Source: a virus
Virus record (IMG/VR): IMGVR_UViG_3300030099_003185
Span: 1 to 27,663 of that record
Length of the DNA: 27,663 nt
Strand: one strand, 5' to 3'
The translations under genes were made by a program, and so were the position numbers. Positions 14,518 to 27,616 of this stretch are shown here, piece by piece. Position 1 is the first letter of the stretch. Each line of letters begins with the position of its first letter. The notes beneath the pieces are model-generated. The model was not told the origin of the DNA. It was given only the letters and a program-made list of their open reading frames with translations, and did not search any database.

Positions 14518-17394
14518 ATGACAATTAGTTTGAGTAACAATGCAGCGCGAGTTTCGTACTCTGTAAGCCAAGGGGCTACACAGAGTAGTTTTACCGTGTC
14601 TTTTGAGTTTTTTGATGATGATGATCTTTCCCTATATGTAGATGGTACTCTTAAAACTCTGACAACTCATTACACAGTATCAGGTGGAGATGGCTCTACT
14701 GGTACAATAACAATGACCAGTGGCAACAATGTTACTGGCATTAGTGGTGGCAGCACTGTTGTTATTACGCGCGATATTGATCTTGATCGTGTGACTGATT
14801 TTCCATCATCAGGTCCATTTGCTGTAGCAACATTAAATACTGAGCTTGATAGATTTACTGCTATTGCCGCTGATCAAAAAGATGAGGTCGATAGAGCATT
14901 ACGTCTTCAAGATTTTGATTCTGCTGTATCTATGGAGCTTCCGCTCAAAGCAGCACGACTAGGTACAGTGCTTGGTTTCAATGCATCAACAGGTGCGCCA
15001 GAAGCAGGACCAACTATAGCTAATGTTAATAGTCTTTCTGCTATTACAACAAATATAAACACGGTTGCTGGTATTCAAAGTAATGTAACTACGGTTGCTG
15101 GCATTTCTTCGAATGTTCAGACTGTTGCTGGCATTTCTGGAAACGTCACGACTGTAGCCGGCATCACAAGCAACATCTCATCTGTTGTCAGTAATGCTAG
15201 CAATATAAATACGGTGGCTGGAGCAATCACAAATGTAAACAATGTTGGCGGTTCTATATCTAATGTGAATACTGTCGCCGGGGCTATCTCCAACGTAAAT
15301 GCTCTAGCGGCATCTGCTGTGATTGCTGACATGGCTCTGCTTGGTAACGCTGATGTTATAGCCGACATGGCCCTGCTCGCCACCACTGATGTCATAGCTG
15401 ATATGAATACCTTGGCAACTAGCGATATTGTATCTGACCTAAACACATTGGCCACCAGTGATATTGTGTCTGATATCAATACACTGGCAACCAGCGATAT
15501 CGTCAGCGACTTAAACACATTGGCGACCAGTGACATTGTCAGCGATATAAATACGCTTGCCACGTCAGATATTGTCACTGACCTAAATCTACTGGCTACC
15601 AGCGATTTCGTTAGCGACCTAAACACATTAGCAACAAGCGCAAATGTAACAGCGGTCAATAACGTCAGCGGCTCAATAGCCAATGTAAACACAGTTGCGT
15701 CAAACCTTAGCGGCGTTAACAGCTTTGCCGAGCGTTATCGTGTATTAAGCTCAGACCCAGGCTCAGACAATGATGAGGGGGATTTGGTCTACAATACCAC
15801 AGACAACAACCTCAAATTTTTCAACGGAAGCTCATTTGTTGCTGTCGGTGGTGCTATCTCAAACATAGTTGAGGACACCACCCCTCAGCTTGGCGCTGAC
15901 CTGGACCTAAACAGCAACAATATTACTGGCACTGGCAACATTTCAACAACTGGTACTGCAACAATCACCACAAGTGGAAACACAGCACAGCTTACACTCA
16001 CATCCACTGACGCAGACGCCACTGGTGGACCCGGATTTGATTTATTAAGAAACAGCAGCAGTCCTGCGAACAGTGATAATATTGGATTCATAAGATTTCG
16101 TGGGAAAAATAGTAACGGTGATGAACACACCTACGGTTTTATACAGTCAAAAGCACTTACTGTGACTGACGGCAGTGAAGATGGCGGTTTTGAATTGCTT
16201 ATGAATAAAGGCGGTTCAAATCGTAGCAGAATGGAGGTTCTTGCTGGCGAAACAGTCTTTAATGAAGACAGCGTAGACGTAGACTTCCGTGTTGAGTCGA
16301 ACGGCAACACTCACGCGATTTTTGTTGATGCAGGAAATGATGTAGTCGGTATTGGCACATCCACACCAAACAGCTTTAACGCTAACGCAAAAAATCTTGT
16401 GGTGGGCACTGGCTCTGGCTCGAACGGCATTACTATTTTTGCAGGAAACTCATCAGACAGTGCGATATTCTTTGCCGATAATGGCAGCACCGCAACGGGC
16501 CAGATAAATTATAAACACTCAGACAATGCCTTTACCTTTCATATAAGTGGCGGCAGTGAGGGTATGCGCCTTGACAGCAGCGGTAATTTTCTTGTTGGAA
16601 AGACTGCCAGTGGCTCATTCACCGAATCTAGTGTTGAGTTGAACAACACAGGCTACGTTATGTCTGCGCGTAATGACGGAGCTAACATATTTCTGTCAAG
16701 ACAAGGATCTAGCGCACCAGAAGGTGCTATGATTTCCCTAAGCAAGGTCAATACAGAAATAGGTCGTATTGGTGTAAAATCATCAAGGATGTATATGGGG
16801 TCTAGTTCCACTGGCCTAGCCTTTGAAGGCTCTCAAGCTGATTCCATCTATCCAGTCTCAGCAAGTGGCGACGGGTCACTTAGAGACAACGCTATTGATT
16901 TAGGCTTTGCATCTTCACGTTTCGATGACATTTTTGCCACCAACAGCACAATCAACACATCTGACGAAAACGAAAAACAGAACATTACTAGCCTGACAAG
17001 CGCAGAGATAACTGCTGCAAAAGCCATAAGTAAGCTGTTCAAAACTTACAAATGGAAAGATAAAGTTACAGCTAAGGGTGATGCGGCTCGTACTCACACG
17101 GGTGTGGTTGCCCAAGAGGTACAAAAGGCTATGACTGACGCTGGGCTAGATGCAACAAAGTATGCCTTCTGGTGTTCGAATACTTGGTGGGAAGTTGAAG
17201 AGACAATCACTGATGATGATGGAAAAAAGCATACAGGAATGATGTCTTATCAGACAGAAGAAGAAGCCCCAGAAGACGCAACCAAACGCACACGGTTGGG
17301 TGTTCGATACCCAGAGTTGTTGGCGTTTATTGGCGCGGCTACAGAGCAAAGGCTAGCAGATATTGAAAGCCGCCTTGCGGCATTGGAGGAGTAA
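14518..17394 (+). CDS. Tail fiber with T7-type N-terminus and S74 autochaperone
   Basis: A 958-residue receptor-binding fiber. Residues 1-150 resemble the T7 gp17 virion-attachment domain (SYSVSQGATQSSFTVSFEFF, later SSGPFAVATLNTELDR). Residues about 180-265 hold loose repeats around TVAGI, and residues 268-375 hold nine 12-residue repeats. A Gly/Ser/Asn-rich shaft and tip follow. The C-terminus is an S74 intramolecular chaperone: Ser815 and Lys820 in TSDENEK form the expected S-D-x3-K cleavage site, then HTGVVAQEVQ and LGVRYPELLAFIGAATEQRL. Autocleavage before Ser815 would release a 144-residue chaperone after trimer folding. A good ribosome site (TAGGAG) precedes the ATG. Confidence 0.94.
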   Translation: MTISLSNNAARVSYSVSQGATQSSFTVSFEFFDDDDLSLYVDGTLKTLTTHYTVSGGDGSTGTITMTSGNNVTGISGGSTVVITRDIDLDRVTDFPSSGPFAVATLNTELDRFTAIAADQKDEVDRALRLQDFDSAVSMELPLKAARLGTVLGFNASTGAPEAGPTIANVNSLSAITTNINTVAGIQSNVTTVAGISSNVQTVAGISGNVTTVAGITSNISSVVSNASNINTVAGAITNVNNVGGSISNVNTVAGAISNVNALAASAVIADMALLGNADVIADMALLATTDVIADMNTLATSDIVSDLNTLATSDIVSDINTLATSDIVSDLNTLATSDIVSDINTLATSDIVTDLNLLATSDFVSDLNTLATSANVTAVNNVSGSIANVNTVASNLSGVNSFAERYRVLSSDPGSDNDEGDLVYNTTDNNLKFFNGSSFVAVGGAISNIVEDTTPQLGADLDLNSNNITGTGNISTTGTATITTSGNTAQLTLTSTDADATGGPGFDLLRNSSSPANSDNIGFIRFRGKNSNGDEHTYGFIQSKALTVTDGSEDGGFELLMNKGGSNRSRMEVLAGETVFNEDSVDVDFRVESNGNTHAIFVDAGNDVVGIGTSTPNSFNANAKNLVVGTGSGSNGITIFAGNSSDSAIFFADNGSTATGQINYKHSDNAFTFHISGGSEGMRLDSSGNFLVGKTASGSFTESSVELNNTGYVMSARNDGANIFLSRQGSSAPEGAMISLSKVNTEIGRIGVKSSRMYMGSSSTGLAFEGSQADSIYPVSASGDGSLRDNAIDLGFASSRFDDIFATNSTINTSDENEKQNITSLTSAEITAAKAISKLFKTYKWKDKVTAKGDAARTHTGVVAQEVQKAMTDAGLDATKYAFWCSNTWWEVEETITDDDGKKHTGMMSYQTEEEAPEDATKRTRLGVRYPELLAFIGAATEQRLADIESRLAALEE
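15319..15642 (+). repeat. Nine 36-bp (12-residue) tandem repeats in the fiber
   Basis: Nine in-frame units of 12 codons follow the pattern (V/I)-(I/V)-x-D-(M/L/I)-N-T-L-A-T-S-D; the middle five are nearly identical as protein (IVSDLNTLATSD type). The codons differ between copies (for example different Ser, Thr and Leu codons), so the protein repeat is conserved better than the DNA, which suggests selection on structure rather than very recent duplication. It probably forms a rod-like trimeric shaft segment. Confidence 0.9.
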
Positions 17395-22242: not shown

Positions 22243-22258
22243 ATTGCACTATTGCACT
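22243..22258. promoter_or_regulatory. Operator-like dyad O4 (TGCA-N4-TGCA)
   Basis: ATTGCA-CTAT-TGCACT has the same TGCA-N4-TGCA core and spacing as the sites at 26621 and 23605. It lies just beyond the stop of the preceding replication gene, at the start of the leader of the recombination genes. No clear promoter is seen, so the assignment is weak. Confidence 0.3.
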
Positions 22259-22856
22259 AAATACTCTTTTTTGCAATGCACTTTTGCAGTGCGTCTAAAA
22301 GATATTTTCTTGGCAAGTAGCGCGGTTCGATATGTTTGTAAAATTCTGCAAAGCTGGGATAAAACGTAGAACGCTTTTTGATTTCCTCAAATGCTTGCAT
22401 AACAATGTCGGCAGGGTACTTTGCAAGCTCTGCTGCAAGGGTTCGACCTTTTGTTGCTAGCATTGTAGCATCAAGATCTTTGGGAAGCGTCAGCAACGGT
22501 AAGATCGTTGCAATACACTTTTCAATATCTTTGGGAAGCATGCCAGCTAAACTACGATTTACATTTCTGATTGCCTGACAAATATTTTTTTCTTCATACT
22601 TGCCAATACTGTAACCAAGCAATGTAAAATCGCTAGCATGTTTAGCTTTCATTGATGGCACTAAGGTAAGCACTGAATCTGTCACTTTGCGTGTTACTTG
22701 TGCTGGATCGTCTACCTTGAGAAGCTGAGCTACCGCTTGTTGTTTGTCTGTTGCCGAAAGATCTACGACACCAAGTTCTGTAGGCGGCATCGACGTCGAT
22801 GAACGTACTGCCTTTAGATTTGTGGTGGTCACGGAAGATAGCTGCTTCATGGTCAT
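22257..22856 (-). CDS. Replication-associated protein, possible helicase loader
   Basis: A 199-residue protein immediately downstream of the initiator gene, the slot of lambda P. The first 25 residues are Ser/Thr-rich and low in complexity; the C-terminal half (TLAAELAKYPADIVMQAF, then STFYPSFAEFYKHIEPRYLP) resembles segments found in phage replication proteins that end with a 'W/Y-P-x3-E' motif. Start at 22856 is supported by GGAG seven bases upstream, which makes this gene overlap the initiator by 215 bp in another frame. A later ATG at 22652, just before the initiator stop, has no ribosome site. Loader function is inferred from position. Confidence 0.65.
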   Translation of the reverse strand: MTMKQLSSVTTTNLKAVRSSTSMPPTELGVVDLSATDKQQAVAQLLKVDDPAQVTRKVTDSVLTLVPSMKAKHASDFTLLGYSIGKYEEKNICQAIRNVNRSLAGMLPKDIEKCIATILPLLTLPKDLDATMLATKGRTLAAELAKYPADIVMQAFEEIKKRSTFYPSFAEFYKHIEPRYLPRKYLLDALQKCIAKKSI

Positions 22857-23280
22857 GGTTTAGCTCCAATTTTTTCTGTTCTAGTCTGATGGCATCAATA
22901 GATTGAATCAACTCTGTTGAAGGAGTCCAATCATCTGGAATCTGACACCTCTTCTTTCTTTGTTTATTGGTTATTGATAGGTTACTGTCGCTCTCTGCGA
23001 CACCACTGTCGCTGTGTGCGACAGCTATGTCGCTCAGTGCGACACGATAGATGTTGCTTTTGAAAGCGTTCTGCGTTCGATGTATATACCCAGCTTGTTC
23101 AAGATCATTCAGCTTTCTTGCAACAGATGCTCGATGCATACCAGTGCGTTCAGCAAGAGTGATAGTGCTAGGCCAACACTCACCTTTGTCATTGGCGTAA
23201 TCACACAATGTAACAAGAAGCCATTTTGCCAATGGATCTTGTATAGGCAAACGCATAGCATCAGCCATTAGTGTGAACAT
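22642..23280 (-). CDS. Lambda-O-like replication initiator (winged helix)
   Basis: A 212-residue protein. Residues about 17-77 form a winged-helix domain (KWLLVTLCDYANDKGECWPS, then LAERTGMHRASVARKLNDL and a wing to SNIYRV). A short repeated linker (VALSDIA, VAHSDSG, VAESDSN) follows, encoded by three iterons. The C-terminal part has PDDWTPS and FRDHHKSKGSTFIDVDAAYR plus TW, the aromatic pattern common in phage replication proteins. The ATG at 23280 is selected for GGAG six bases upstream. It should bind the origin in its own gene and recruit the host helicase with the downstream protein. Confidence 0.85.
   Translation of the reverse strand: MFTLMADAMRLPIQDPLAKWLLVTLCDYANDKGECWPSTITLAERTGMHRASVARKLNDLEQAGYIHRTQNAFKSNIYRVALSDIAVAHSDSGVAESDSNLSITNKQRKKRCQIPDDWTPSTELIQSIDAIRLEQKKLELNHDHEAAIFRDHHKSKGSTFIDVDAAYRTWCRRSFGNRQTTSGSSASQGRRSSTSNTQSDRFSAYLSAINES
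22986..23044. repeat. Three 17-bp iterons: probable replication origin
   Basis: TGTCGC-N5-GCGACA occurs three times at 22986-23002, 23007-23023 and 23028-23044, with an exact 21-bp period (two helical turns). Each is a perfect 6+6 dyad; only the 5-bp centres and 4-bp linkers vary. An AT-rich stretch (about 22950-22985) lies on the 3' side in gene direction, the same order as iterons and AT-rich region in the lambda ori inside gene O. They are the likely binding sites of the initiator in whose gene they lie. Confidence 0.85.
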
Positions 23281-23591
23281 ATAGCTCTCCACTCTCTTTG
23301 TTTGCGGTTACTTCTTCCTTTGCGCTTTTCACCTGTAAGTTCTATCAACCCTTTTTTTTCAAGTTCATTGAACCTACTACTTACACTTGAATTTGATGTG
23401 ATGTTTGGATGAGTGATTTGCACATACTTCCACACCTCATCATGAATACATGGTCCAATAGATTTGATTGCATCTAATACAATCTGTTGCATCTTTGTAG
23501 GATCAATCGACTCAGCAGCTTCATAGCTTGTCGATGGATCATTACGGCGAACCAGTTTATATGCTGGAATTTCAAATAGATCTTCGTTCAT
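23268..23591 (-). CDS. Winged-helix DNA-binding protein
   Basis: A 107-residue protein with an N-terminal KLVRRNDPSTSYEAAESID motif, a form ('DP-TS-EAA') common in small phage proteins, and a winged-helix region (VLDAIKSIGPCIHDEVWKYV, then SSVSSRFNELEKKGLIEL) ending in a basic wing (GEKRKGRSNRKQREW). AAGGGAG precedes the ATG. It lies just upstream of the initiator and overlaps it by 13 bp. It may regulate early transcription or assist replication; an operator-like dyad sits 14 bp before its start. Confidence 0.82.
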   Translation of the reverse strand: MNEDLFEIPAYKLVRRNDPSTSYEAAESIDPTKMQQIVLDAIKSIGPCIHDEVWKYVQITHPNITSNSSVSSRFNELEKKGLIELTGEKRKGRSNRKQREWRAICSH

Positions 23592-25019: not shown

Positions 25020-25255
25020 CATGCATCTCCAATCACTTTTAAGTTTTGTCCATCGAACAAATAGAGTTTTGAAGGAATCATTTTCTTTGTCGTCTTACAT
25101 CTTTTAGCTGTGACATACTCATCCCAAGCTGGGTATTTATCAGGCCATATTGCGGCCTGACGTCTAATTTTTTGTGCAATCTGTTTGAGTGTTTTGCCAC
25201 AGGACCATACTGTAATGTCTCCACCTGTTTCATTTAGTTTGCAGTAATAAATCAT
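25016..25255 (-). CDS. Hypothetical early protein
   Basis: A 79-residue basic protein of unknown function. The ATG at 25255 overlaps the ArdC-like gene stop by one base (TAATG); an upstream in-frame start at 25291 is rejected because it lies inside that gene. It contains YYCKLNETGGDITVWSCGKT, Lys/Arg-rich helices, and ends with SKLYLFDGQNLKVIGDAW, which looks like a beta-hairpin. No motif recognised. Confidence 0.72.
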   Translation of the reverse strand: MIYYCKLNETGGDITVWSCGKTLKQIAQKIRRQAAIWPDKYPAWDEYVTAKRCKTTKKMIPSKLYLFDGQNLKVIGDAW

Positions 25256-26085
25256 TATGCTGCTTCCTTCTTTGCTGTTTGTGCTTCCCAAATATAGTTG
25301 ACTGCTTTCGATGCTGCTGATGCTGCACTGAATATAAACTTGCTGTCATTGTCGAGAGCCTTGAGCCAATGCTCGATGTAGCTTGCATGGTCCTCTCGAA
25401 CCTTTGCCTCAAGGCCAAGCTGTGCCATCAAAAACGCCGATCCCATCTCAGCAACTAACTCTTCGATGGCATAGTCGGTTTTGTTGCGACTGAAGTTTCG
25501 TTCGAGGCGAAACTTGTGTCCTGTCCAGTGAACAAGTTCATGGAATAATGTGCTGTAGTAATCCAGTGCAGATCTGAAGTCTTCGAACTTGGGCATGTTG
25601 ATGTAATCATGTGTTGGATTGAAGTATGCTTTTGATGCACCATTACGAACATCTGCTTTTGTTCCTGATACTAGATCATCCGCTACTGTGTCTTTTGGAT
25701 CTGTGTTGATGTAATCTTGCACAAGAGGCGGTTGGTATTTGTCTGGCAGTCCATCGATCTGGTCTGCATTGAAGACTGTGTACCATTTGTAGCATCTATA
25801 TGTTTCGTCATCTTTTGTTGTGACTGGTGCTGAATAACATACTGATGTGCCGCGCTCTCCTTTGCGAACTTGACCACCAATTTCTTTGGCTTGTCTGTAT
25901 GTCATCCATGTGGGTGCAGTTCTTCCCTGCATCCAAAGCAGAATAACATTGATGCCTTGATACATTTCACCATTGAAGCGTAGAGGCATTGGCATGCCTC
26001 CACCATTCCAAGGCTTGATCCAAGGGGGAGTGCCAGCTTCAAGCTGCGCTTTGATCTGCCGTGTTACATCATCAAACTTGCTCAT
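25255..26085 (-). CDS. ArdC-like antirestriction / ssDNA-binding metalloprotease-type protein
   Basis: A 276-residue protein with the two-part layout of ArdC: an N-terminal ssDNA-binding domain (VTRQIKAQLEAGTPPWIKPW, RFNGEMYQGINVILLW, EIGGQVRKGERGTSV, a highly characteristic string) and a C-terminal zincin-like domain with the active-site HELVH at residues 182-186 and a downstream Glu in EELVAEMGSAFL. Plasmid ArdC proteins protect incoming DNA from restriction; the phage version may do likewise or act in early DNA handling. GAAGGAG precedes the ATG, which overlaps the previous stop (ATGA). Confidence 0.92.
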   Translation of the reverse strand: MSKFDDVTRQIKAQLEAGTPPWIKPWNGGGMPMPLRFNGEMYQGINVILLWMQGRTAPTWMTYRQAKEIGGQVRKGERGTSVCYSAPVTTKDDETYRCYKWYTVFNADQIDGLPDKYQPPLVQDYINTDPKDTVADDLVSGTKADVRNGASKAYFNPTHDYINMPKFEDFRSALDYYSTLFHELVHWTGHKFRLERNFSRNKTDYAIEELVAEMGSAFLMAQLGLEAKVREDHASYIEHWLKALDNDSKFIFSAASAASKAVNYIWEAQTAKKEAA

Positions 26086-26430: not shown

Positions 26431-26584
26431 TTTGTGCCTCATATAGATCTTCTAATGCATGAATGTTTTTGATTTCGTCATCGTAGATTTTCTGGGAATG
26501 ACAATCAGCGCAGTACATATCGTCTGCTTCTGAATCATAAACTGTTGCGTTACGTTGATCGCAAATTGCACATTTACTAAACAT
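26411..26584 (-). CDS. 57-residue zinc-ribbon protein, first gene of early operon
   Basis: A short gene 32 bp downstream of the early promoter's -10 box. The product has CAIC (residues 5-8) and CADC (residues 25-28), a Cys-x2-Cys-x16-Cys-x2-Cys ribbon, followed by an acidic helix (KIYDDEIKNIHALEDLYEA). AGGA eight bases before the ATG supports the start. As the first product of the leftward early operon it would be made early. Function unknown; metal-ribbon proteins in this position may bind host transcription or nucleic acid. Confidence 0.75.
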   Translation of the reverse strand: MFSKCAICDQRNATVYDSEADDMYCADCHSQKIYDDEIKNIHALEDLYEAQNDMPSL

Positions 26585-26615
26585 GATAGATCCTATTGAC
26601 TGTTGAATTGATTTG

Positions 26616-26644
26616 ATTGTACTGCATAGTTGCAGTGATTACAA
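26616..26644 (-). promoter_or_regulatory. Early leftward sigma70-like promoter
   Basis: On the minus strand TTGTAA (26644-26639) and TACAAT (26621-26616) are separated by exactly 17 bp, giving 4/6 and 5/6 matches to the sigma70 consensus. The expected start is about 25 bp before the first early gene (26584). All genes from there to 19828 run in this direction with short overlaps, so it probably drives much of the early operon. Confidence 0.62.
26621..26636. promoter_or_regulatory. Operator-like perfect dyad O1 in the early promoter
   Basis: ACTGCA-TAGT-TGCAGT is a perfect 6+6 inverted repeat with a 4-bp centre that occupies the spacer between the -35 and -10 boxes of the early promoter. A protein bound here would exclude RNA polymerase. 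Related TGCA-N4-TGCA sites are at 24535 (degenerate), 23605 and 22243. Confidence 0.6.
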
Positions 26645-26715
26645 TAATAAATGAATTGATTTCGTCAGCGATTTTTGGCGCAAAGATTACATAGCTTGTC
26701 AATCAGGAGGGCTGC

Positions 26716-26761
26716 GGCGCATGCTGCTTGGGCTTCCTGCGTTGCCCAGGCGCATGCGCCT
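26716..26761. repeat. GC-rich nested inverted repeats
   Basis: AGGCGCATGCGCCT (26748-26761) is a perfect 14-bp palindrome. Its GCATGCGCC also pairs with GGCGCATGC at 26716-26724, enclosing a smaller TGGGC/GCCCA stem. The stretch is far richer in G and C than the early operon beside it. It lies between the terminator of the right-end gene and the early promoter, with no convincing gene in 26585-26813. It could be a protein-binding or structured-RNA element. Confidence 0.5.
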
Positions 26762-26773
26762 AATGCCAGACAG

Positions 26774-26804
26774 AAAAAAACCCCAGCGACCGGAGCCGCT
26801 GAGG
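26774..26804 (-). terminator. Intrinsic terminator of the right-end gene
   Basis: Read leftward, CCTCAGCG and CGCTGGGG (26804-26781) form an 8-bp stem with one G-T pair and an 8-base loop, followed by seven T (26780-26774). It begins 10 bp beyond the stop codon of the gene at 26814. This is the clearest intrinsic terminator in the window. Confidence 0.88.
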
Positions 26805-26813
26805 CTTGGGAGT

Positions 26814-27305
26814 CTATTCTGCTGCTTGTTGCATGTACTTGGCAGCGAGTTCCTTTCTGCGTTTTGCACCAATGTCTATCCTTGGTGCGGCTCGTTTCTT
26901 TGAGGTGTATGTAAACTTGTCTTCGGTACACTCCTCGTAAGCTGCCTTCTGATCTACGACGAACGCTTTCAACATCTCGATCTCTTGATCGATATTGTCC
27001 ATGCGTTCATCGATGCGGTCAGAAGCCAGATCTGTGCTGTGCATGCCACCACGCGCTGCACCGTACTTAGCGACTACCACCAAAAGCTGATCGTCTGAGA
27101 TTTGGTCTGCGCCCTCGATCTGGATCTTGTCATCGACCAGTTGATGTATGTCCTTCTCCTTCTGGTCAATCAACCACTCTGCTTGTTCTACAGCTTTGCG
27201 AGCTAGATTTTGAATGAGATATACGCGAGATCTTCCACCGTTGAGATCTTGATTTGGGAAAGAACTGTTGTATCCGCTTGCGAAGTGATTAGATGTGTTG
27301 CTCAT
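26814..27305 (-). CDS. Right-end hypothetical protein, probably strongly translated
   Basis: A 163-residue protein. The ATG at 27305 has a full AAGGAGG five bases upstream; a longer frame to 27524 would translate inverted repeats and is rejected. The N-terminus is polar (MSNTSNHFASGYNSSFPNQD), the middle is helical and acidic (LIDQKEKDIHQLVDDKIQIE, later DERMDNIDQEIEMLKAFVVD) and the end is basic (SKKRAAPRIDIGAKRRKEL). It has its own terminator and lies apart from the early operon in a GC-rich block, like a moron or an immediate-early gene. I do not recognise the family. Confidence 0.8.
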   Translation of the reverse strand: MSNTSNHFASGYNSSFPNQDLNGGRSRVYLIQNLARKAVEQAEWLIDQKEKDIHQLVDDKIQIEGADQISDDQLLVVVAKYGAARGGMHSTDLASDRIDERMDNIDQEIEMLKAFVVDQKAAYEECTEDKFTYTSKKRAAPRIDIGAKRRKELAAKYMQQAAE

Positions 27306-27616
27306 GAGAACCTCCTTGTTGAGCTGTGACGGGACTACCCGCCGATAAGCGAGGGAATGCACCGCGACAGGGCAGGGAGCAACCCGCAACACGGAGTGGA
27401 GCGGGCAGCGGGTTGCAGCGCACACAACAAACAAGCCACTACGCGCCACGCGCGGAGTGACTAGTTGTGCGCGACCCTGCAATGGCGTGGGGCATAAGGA
27501 ATCGCAGGCGGGTAGGGCTGGCATAGTGAAACATGGCGGGGCGATATGACAACCATCTATGAACGGAGCAAGTGGATGCGGCAGGGCTTTTCCAATGAAA
27601 GATCGCCTGTGAGTGC
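27306..27616. other. GC-rich noncoding region with inverted repeats
   Basis: About 310 bp without a credible gene on either strand. GCAACCCGC (27379-27387) pairs with GCGGGTTGC (27408-27416). GCGCACACAAC (27418-27428) pairs with GTTGTGCGC (27464-27472) apart from a 2-base bulge, with CACT/AGTG nested inside. It lies where leftward early and rightward late transcription would diverge if the genome continues to the right, so a control region, structured leader or replication/packaging site is possible. No clear sigma70 promoter for the gene at 27305 was found. Confidence 0.55.

Follow-up and report, generated by a model that had tools for sequence, protein, structure and literature searches.

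A candidate lambda-like replication origin inside a PF13730-type phage initiator gene

What is the role of three perfect inverted repeats that follow each other at exactly 21 bp inside a single phage gene? The repeats are found in the IMG/VR virus record IMGVR_UViG_3300030099_003185, of which positions 1 to 27,663 were analysed as one linear contig of uncertain completeness (the window, 27,663 bp), and no near DNA match to it exists among 50,697 annotated phage records. A preliminary description, made from the letters alone, had taken the locus for a lambda-type origin of replication within its own initiator gene. Our analysis points, with a probability of roughly 0.87, to a theta-type phage replication origin which lies inside the initiator gene in the manner of lambda but is served by a different initiator domain. 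At the level of sequence, this reading is carried by the anatomy of the locus, its conservation in relatives, selection at the DNA level, the co-variation of recognition helix and iterons, and a conserved box behind the iterons.

Three iterons within an initiator gene

In gene order, the winged-helix domain (residues 5-84) is followed by the iterons (residues 83-103), an AT-rich tract and a helical C-terminus:

22642..23292, minus strand: replication initiator gene, GTG start, 216 aa (P0001), with winged-helix N-terminus, disordered linker and helical C-terminus (open reading frame (ORF), profiles, structural model)
23041..23280, minus strand: winged-helix DNA-binding domain, residues 5-84 (HTH_36 match; modelled helices and wing up to residue 84)
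23028..23044, minus strand: iteron 1 in gene order, exact dyad TGTCGC-N5-GCGACA
23007..23023, minus strand: iteron 2, the same exact dyad, 21 bp beyond iteron 1
22986..23002, minus strand: iteron 3, exact dyad TGTCGC-N5-GCGACA adjoining the AT-rich tract, with one silent change in the nearest relative
22954..23040, minus strand: linker codons 85-113, holding the larger part of the iterons together with the boxes and AT-rich DNA (predicted local distance difference test score (pLDDT) below 50 at residues 90-112)
22735..22953, minus strand: helical C-terminal domain, residues 114-186 (PHROG 1408/3992; modelled helices 126-186)

The array consists of three perfect 17-bp dyads at 22986-23044 with start-to-start spacings of 21 and 21 bp, exactly as first described, and no further copy with up to two mismatches occurs in the 27,663 bp. 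When the whole window is scanned for dyads in 210-nt tiles, independently of any motif, this array takes first place (score 36, three dyads without mismatch). The second-best dyad family of the window is an unrelated set of dyad-like repeats with a 36-nt periodicity at 15226-15646 inside the 958-aa ORF 14518-17394, which probably reflects a protein repeat. Multiple dyad iterons inside an initiator gene belong to a lambda-type organisation, and their phasing of about two helical turns is found here (21 bp) as well as in relatives (21-24 bp).

The assignment of the host gene as coding for a winged-helix protein with a replication-protein C-terminus is borne out by profile searches. Its N-terminus matches PF13730 (HTH_36) over residues 21-70 (E=3e-16, 59.3 bits against a cut-off of 25), the protein matches PHROG 1032, annotated as 'replication initiation protein' (E=2e-24), its C-terminal part matches the replication-initiator profiles PHROG 1408 and 3992 (residues 103-204), and PHROG 345 spans residues 8-214 (E=3e-14). 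The gathering score together with the replication-type C-terminus places the protein among the PF13730 phage replication initiators. In an AlphaFold model built from an alignment of 32 sequences, the winged helix-turn-helix (wHTH) domain has pLDDT values mostly above 85, residues 90-112 stay below 50 and the C-terminus is helical; as the predicted template modelling score is 0.41, the arrangement of the domains is not meaningful. The largely disordered prediction for the iteron-encoded stretch fits the earlier suggestion of a flexible linker that tolerates the constraint imposed by the DNA.

The iterons encode the heptads VALSDIA / VAHSDSG / VAESDSN, so that the 7-residue repeat VAxSDxx noticed at the outset is real. 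It could be asked whether the DNA repeat is simply the by-product of a heptad selected at the peptide level, as 21 nt correspond to exactly seven codons and 21 and 24 are the commonest steps among relatives. Yet the codons GTC GCA. AGC GAC are identical in all three copies, for which, given V-A-S-D and the codon usage of the phage itself, P is ~3e-4 for three identical codon sets and ~9e-9 for exactly these codons. Steps of 22 and 23 nt, which break a peptide repeat, are also common in relatives (21, 66 times; 22, 27; 23, 25; 24, 59), and 77 of 251 repeat steps (~31%) are not multiples of three; the DNA repeat is thus kept without a peptide repeat, which argues for selection on the DNA and not only on the peptide. 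With half-sites that follow the recognition helix (see below) and a stretch predicted to be disordered, a peptide-level origin is largely refuted by the non-triplet steps and the identical codons, and we consider it very improbable.

The conservation of the array was surveyed in loci from two collection scans (160 loci), 12 annotated phage regions and loci with matches to the candidate loader described below; 176 of these loci carry a PF13730 domain, corresponding to 122 distinct domains. In 103 of the 122 the linker holds a dyad family above the 95th percentile of codon-shuffled controls, where about 6 would be expected, and in 67 it surpasses all 976 shuffles. Most of the remaining 19 have imperfect repeats, and one (L124) ends at a contig edge. 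The dyads are kept in the same place in the nearest relative (L001, 94% amino acid identity), with two perfect and the third, iteron 3, carrying a single silent change. Across the iterons, the AT-rich tract and the following stretch, 2 of 240 nt differ between the two genes, compared with 23 of 411 elsewhere in the gene.

A role at the level of RNA, with the dyads acting as messenger RNA hairpins that control the overlapping downstream gene, would find support in the strong predicted fold of the iteron stretch (-38.5 kcal/mol, z=-5.7). Any dyad array folds in this way, however, and the fold pairs neighbouring copies; neither the helical phasing of 21-24 bp nor the match to a DNA-reading helix is predicted by an RNA function, to which we give next to no credence.

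Co-variation of recognition helix and iterons

If the winged-helix domain reads the dyads, its recognition helix should change together with them. The segment concerned is:

23110..23139, minus strand: recognition-helix segment MHRASVARKL, residues 52-61, the best iteron predictor (partial Mantel peak, mutual information; modelled helix 54-67)

Among 103 sequences, iteron distance is correlated with the distance of these ten residues after removal of the rest of the domain (partial Mantel r=0.41, permutation p=0.001). The relatives are not independent of each other, and the partial test lessens the effect of kinship without removing it. When a ten-residue window is moved along the domain, values of 0.41-0.42 are confined to recognition-helix windows; a single window with partial overlap gives 0.25, and the remainder do not exceed 0.18. 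The check proposed in the preliminary description, namely co-variation between iterons and DNA-binding domain, therefore comes out positive, with a signal confined to the recognition helix. For relatives with 50-80% of the remaining domain in common, half-site cores are 92-100% identical when four helix residues are identical and 47-50% identical when these differ; in the bin of 40-50% domain identity the contrast is weak (0.50 vs 0.42). Individual residues pair with individual bases: arginine at helix position 4 goes with G at base pair 5 in 31 of 32 distinct combinations, arginine at position 8 with C at base pair 3 in 12 of 13, and histidine at position 2 with G at base pair 4 in 3 of 3. 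Within the window's own family, helices with MHR (the window, L001 and L022-L032) occur with TGTCGC and helices with MGR or MSR (L015-L021) with TGTCT(C).

The loci L022-L032 have the same wHTH domain and two TGTCGC iterons in front of an unrelated C-terminal domain, without a homologue of the loader. As wHTH and iterons are kept despite the other C-terminus, the sites travel with the DNA-binding domain, and by comparison of the sequences these loci represent a swap of the domain that lies downstream of the origin. Origin recognition thus seems to be particular to each phage type. Hybrid-phage genetics established long ago that the N-terminus of lambda O and ori are type-specific, and such co-variation is therefore in principle not new.

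The same co-variation would also be expected if the dyads were operators at which the winged-helix protein represses its operon or adjusts the expression of it, while replication starts elsewhere. Most proteins with this kind of winged-helix fold are transcription regulators; a fold search with the initiator model returns winged-helix regulators, including a resemblance to TubR and similar proteins, and sequence searches against solved structures give only a weak match to a FadR-family HTH. The sites, by contrast, lie about 250 bp inside the gene and not at a promoter in nearly every relative, they are followed at a fixed distance by an AT-rich tract and a conserved box, and the profiles match replication initiators rather than regulators. 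An operator is therefore unlikely, although it is the best placed of the other explanations.

The AT-rich tract and the AACC box

An origin of the lambda kind has an AT-rich tract directly behind its last iteron, and such a tract is present behind iteron 3:

22947..22985, minus strand: AT-rich tract, candidate DNA unwinding element, 70% AT, containing the AACC boxes
22975..22983, minus strand: AACC box 1, AACCTATCA, 2 bp past iteron 3 (consensus AACC-N0-2-TCA in relatives)
22966..22972, minus strand: AACC box 2, AACCAAT, 11 bp on from box 1 (clustering of AACC-AACC steps in relatives)

With 70% AT, the 40 nt behind the last dyad tie for the highest 40-nt stretch of the gene, which has a mean of 55%; the AT-rich neighbour of the first description is thus confirmed. 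In the survey, mean AT is 44% for the iterons, 60% for the next 45 nt and 52% for the gene. Within 60 nt after the last dyad the motif AACC-N0-2-TCA is present in 74 of 103 genes (codon-shuffled mean 7, maximum 13), while in other pieces of those genes it occurs in only 12 of 794. In 57 of the 74 it is offset by 2-4 bp from the last iteron, and the steps from one AACC to the next are mostly 10-12 or 17 bp. All three reading frames occur for the box (47/20/7), which accordingly encodes T-S-H, E-P-S or N-L-S and is therefore a DNA element; a conserved peptide, TSHSFEPV, was considered as its cause and is ruled out by the three frames. Judged by these sequence patterns, AACC box and AT-rich tract probably form an unwinding element proper to this origin, and the box may have a direct role in melting or loading. 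The literature searched, which covered papers available without subscription, contains nothing relevant on an AACC box or a systematic comparison of helix and iterons in the PF13730 class. Both the box and the extent of the co-variation in this class thus appear to be new, with an earlier description being possible.

Repeated initiator sites can also regulate replication, as in iteron plasmids (PMC5043065), which raises the question whether the array serves a phage-plasmid in copy control or partition, with the same protein bound to it. The likeness of the wHTH model to TubR and similar proteins would agree with partition. On the other hand, none of the window ORFs that were searched was recognised as a partition gene, and the adjoining AT-rich tract and box fit opening of the DNA rather than partition, which makes such a site highly improbable.

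Relation to known origins and a model of initiation

In lambda, O dimers bind iterons that are imperfect 19-bp inverted repeats within gene O, after which an AT-rich tract unwinds (PMC7466680, PMC5043065). The annotated records of lambda, phi80 (gene 15) and P22 (gene 18) show the same order of iterons and then AT-rich tract in the initiator gene. The locus studied here matches this order, as had been proposed: dyad iterons about 20-24 bp apart lie inside the initiator gene, past the DNA-binding domain and ahead of an AT-rich tract, and a candidate replication gene follows downstream of the initiator. The designation as a lambda-type origin consequently holds for the organisation; for the protein it does not, as the initiator lies outside the Pfam family of lambda O, PF04492 (Phage_rep_O). 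While lambda O, phi80 gp15 and P22 gp18 match PF04492 at 6e-25 to 7e-38, the window initiator and its relatives match PF13730 instead. BLASTP finds no similarity between the initiator and those of lambda, phi80 and P22, hhalign against lambda-type initiators aligns only the HTH with a probability of 5%, and a remote link exists through PHROG 345, the best match of P22 gp18. The iteron sequence differs as well, the candidate loader is another protein whose gene has a long overlap, and the AACC box after the last iteron is absent from the sequences of lambda, P22 and phi80; the AT-rich tracts of lambda and P22 carry ACAAAAGA-type repeats.

The domain order, the in-gene dyad arrays and the AACC box are shared with PF13730-type initiators from prophages of enterobacteria and of marine origin ('primosomal protein 1', PHROG 1032/391). 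The window family is only ~30% identical to these, and it differs from them in its iteron sequence and in its candidate loader family. Like the origins of the iteron plasmids RK2, P1 and pSC101, the locus combines repeats bound by the initiator, here as a prediction, with an adjoining AT-rich tract; unlike the plasmid iterons, its repeats are dyads inside a coding sequence.

Two neighbouring genes have to be considered:

22257..22856, minus strand: overlapping gene (P0002), 199 aa, candidate helicase loader (ORF, its start MTMKQLSS and the overlap all conserved in relatives)
23268..23591, minus strand: small winged-helix ORF upstream in the same operon (PHROG 1123, unknown function, E=1.5e-11)

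Initiator and downstream gene share 215 nt (22642-22856) in different frames, and since both frames stay open across relatives, this overlap is probably dual coding. Among annotated phages no homologue of the candidate loader P0002 was found. Its model (pLDDT 83) has one plausible solved match, the SPP1 helicase loader/inhibitor G39P (1no1; 67 residues, probability 0.93), at E=0.5, so that a loader role is a lead only. The comparison with SPP1, made at the level of the proteins, would pair a phage initiator (G38P) with a small helical loader (G39P). Of the window proteins that were searched (a part of the ORFs, on a contig that may be incomplete), none was recognised as a helicase, primase or polymerase, which fits the use of a host helicase.

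From these data we infer a model for dimer binding, melting, loading and initiation at the site. Winged-helix domains would sit as dimers on each 17-bp dyad, their recognition helices (residues 52-61) placed in the major groove, and with dyads two helical turns apart the dimers would sit on one face of the DNA and form an O-some-like complex. Such a complex would strain the adjacent AT-rich tract (22947-22985) until it opens, and initiator or loader would perhaps contact, in single-stranded form, the AACC boxes at its iteron-proximal edge. Recruitment of the loader from the overlapping gene (22856-22257) may then fall to the helical C-terminal domain, and the loader would deliver a DnaB-type helicase of the host.

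Several points weigh against an origin at this site. No binding, melting or replication data were found for members of the PF13730 type, and as the contig may be incomplete another origin could lie outside it. GC skew, proposed as a check, follows gene orientation and shows no mark of an origin at 23 kb; it is uninformative. With three iterons the array is small compared with the four of lambda, although relatives have two, and in a few relatives no clear array is seen, with one dyad left in L003 and none in register in L037. The former is the initiator gene of Salmonella phage SI8 (2001-2537 of that locus), in which a single dyad remains ahead of AACC boxes, possibly as a reduced or inactive origin.

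Elsewhere in the window, genes for a YqaJ exonuclease and an Erf annealase lie downstream of the initiator gene. The region 25255-26085 codes for an anti-restriction-like protein with an ArdC N-terminal domain and a zincin metallopeptidase, and G+C rises to 0.50 at 26501-27500, near the contig end, against ~0.42 elsewhere.

The wider proposal is more tentative than the origin itself. PF13730-type phage initiators may constitute a widespread class of in-gene origins with a sequence-specific unwinding element of their own, whose AACC boxes, set at a fixed 2-4 bp behind the last iteron and recurring in steps of 10-12 or 17 bp, might be contacted single-stranded by initiator or loader in the way that DnaA-trios guide DnaA. 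The helix might read the iterons by a simple residue-to-base code, of which arginine at position 4 and G at base pair 5 would be one example. Because one stretch of DNA serves both as initiator gene and as its binding sites, a new origin specificity needs both to be changed together. The survey provides a large natural data set for this, in which helix and half-sites change in step across about 100 phages and prophages, even where the C-terminus has been swapped. It also points to a conserved element, the AACC box, with a function that is open to direct testing. For many prophages annotated only with a 'primosomal protein', origins become predictable from sequence.
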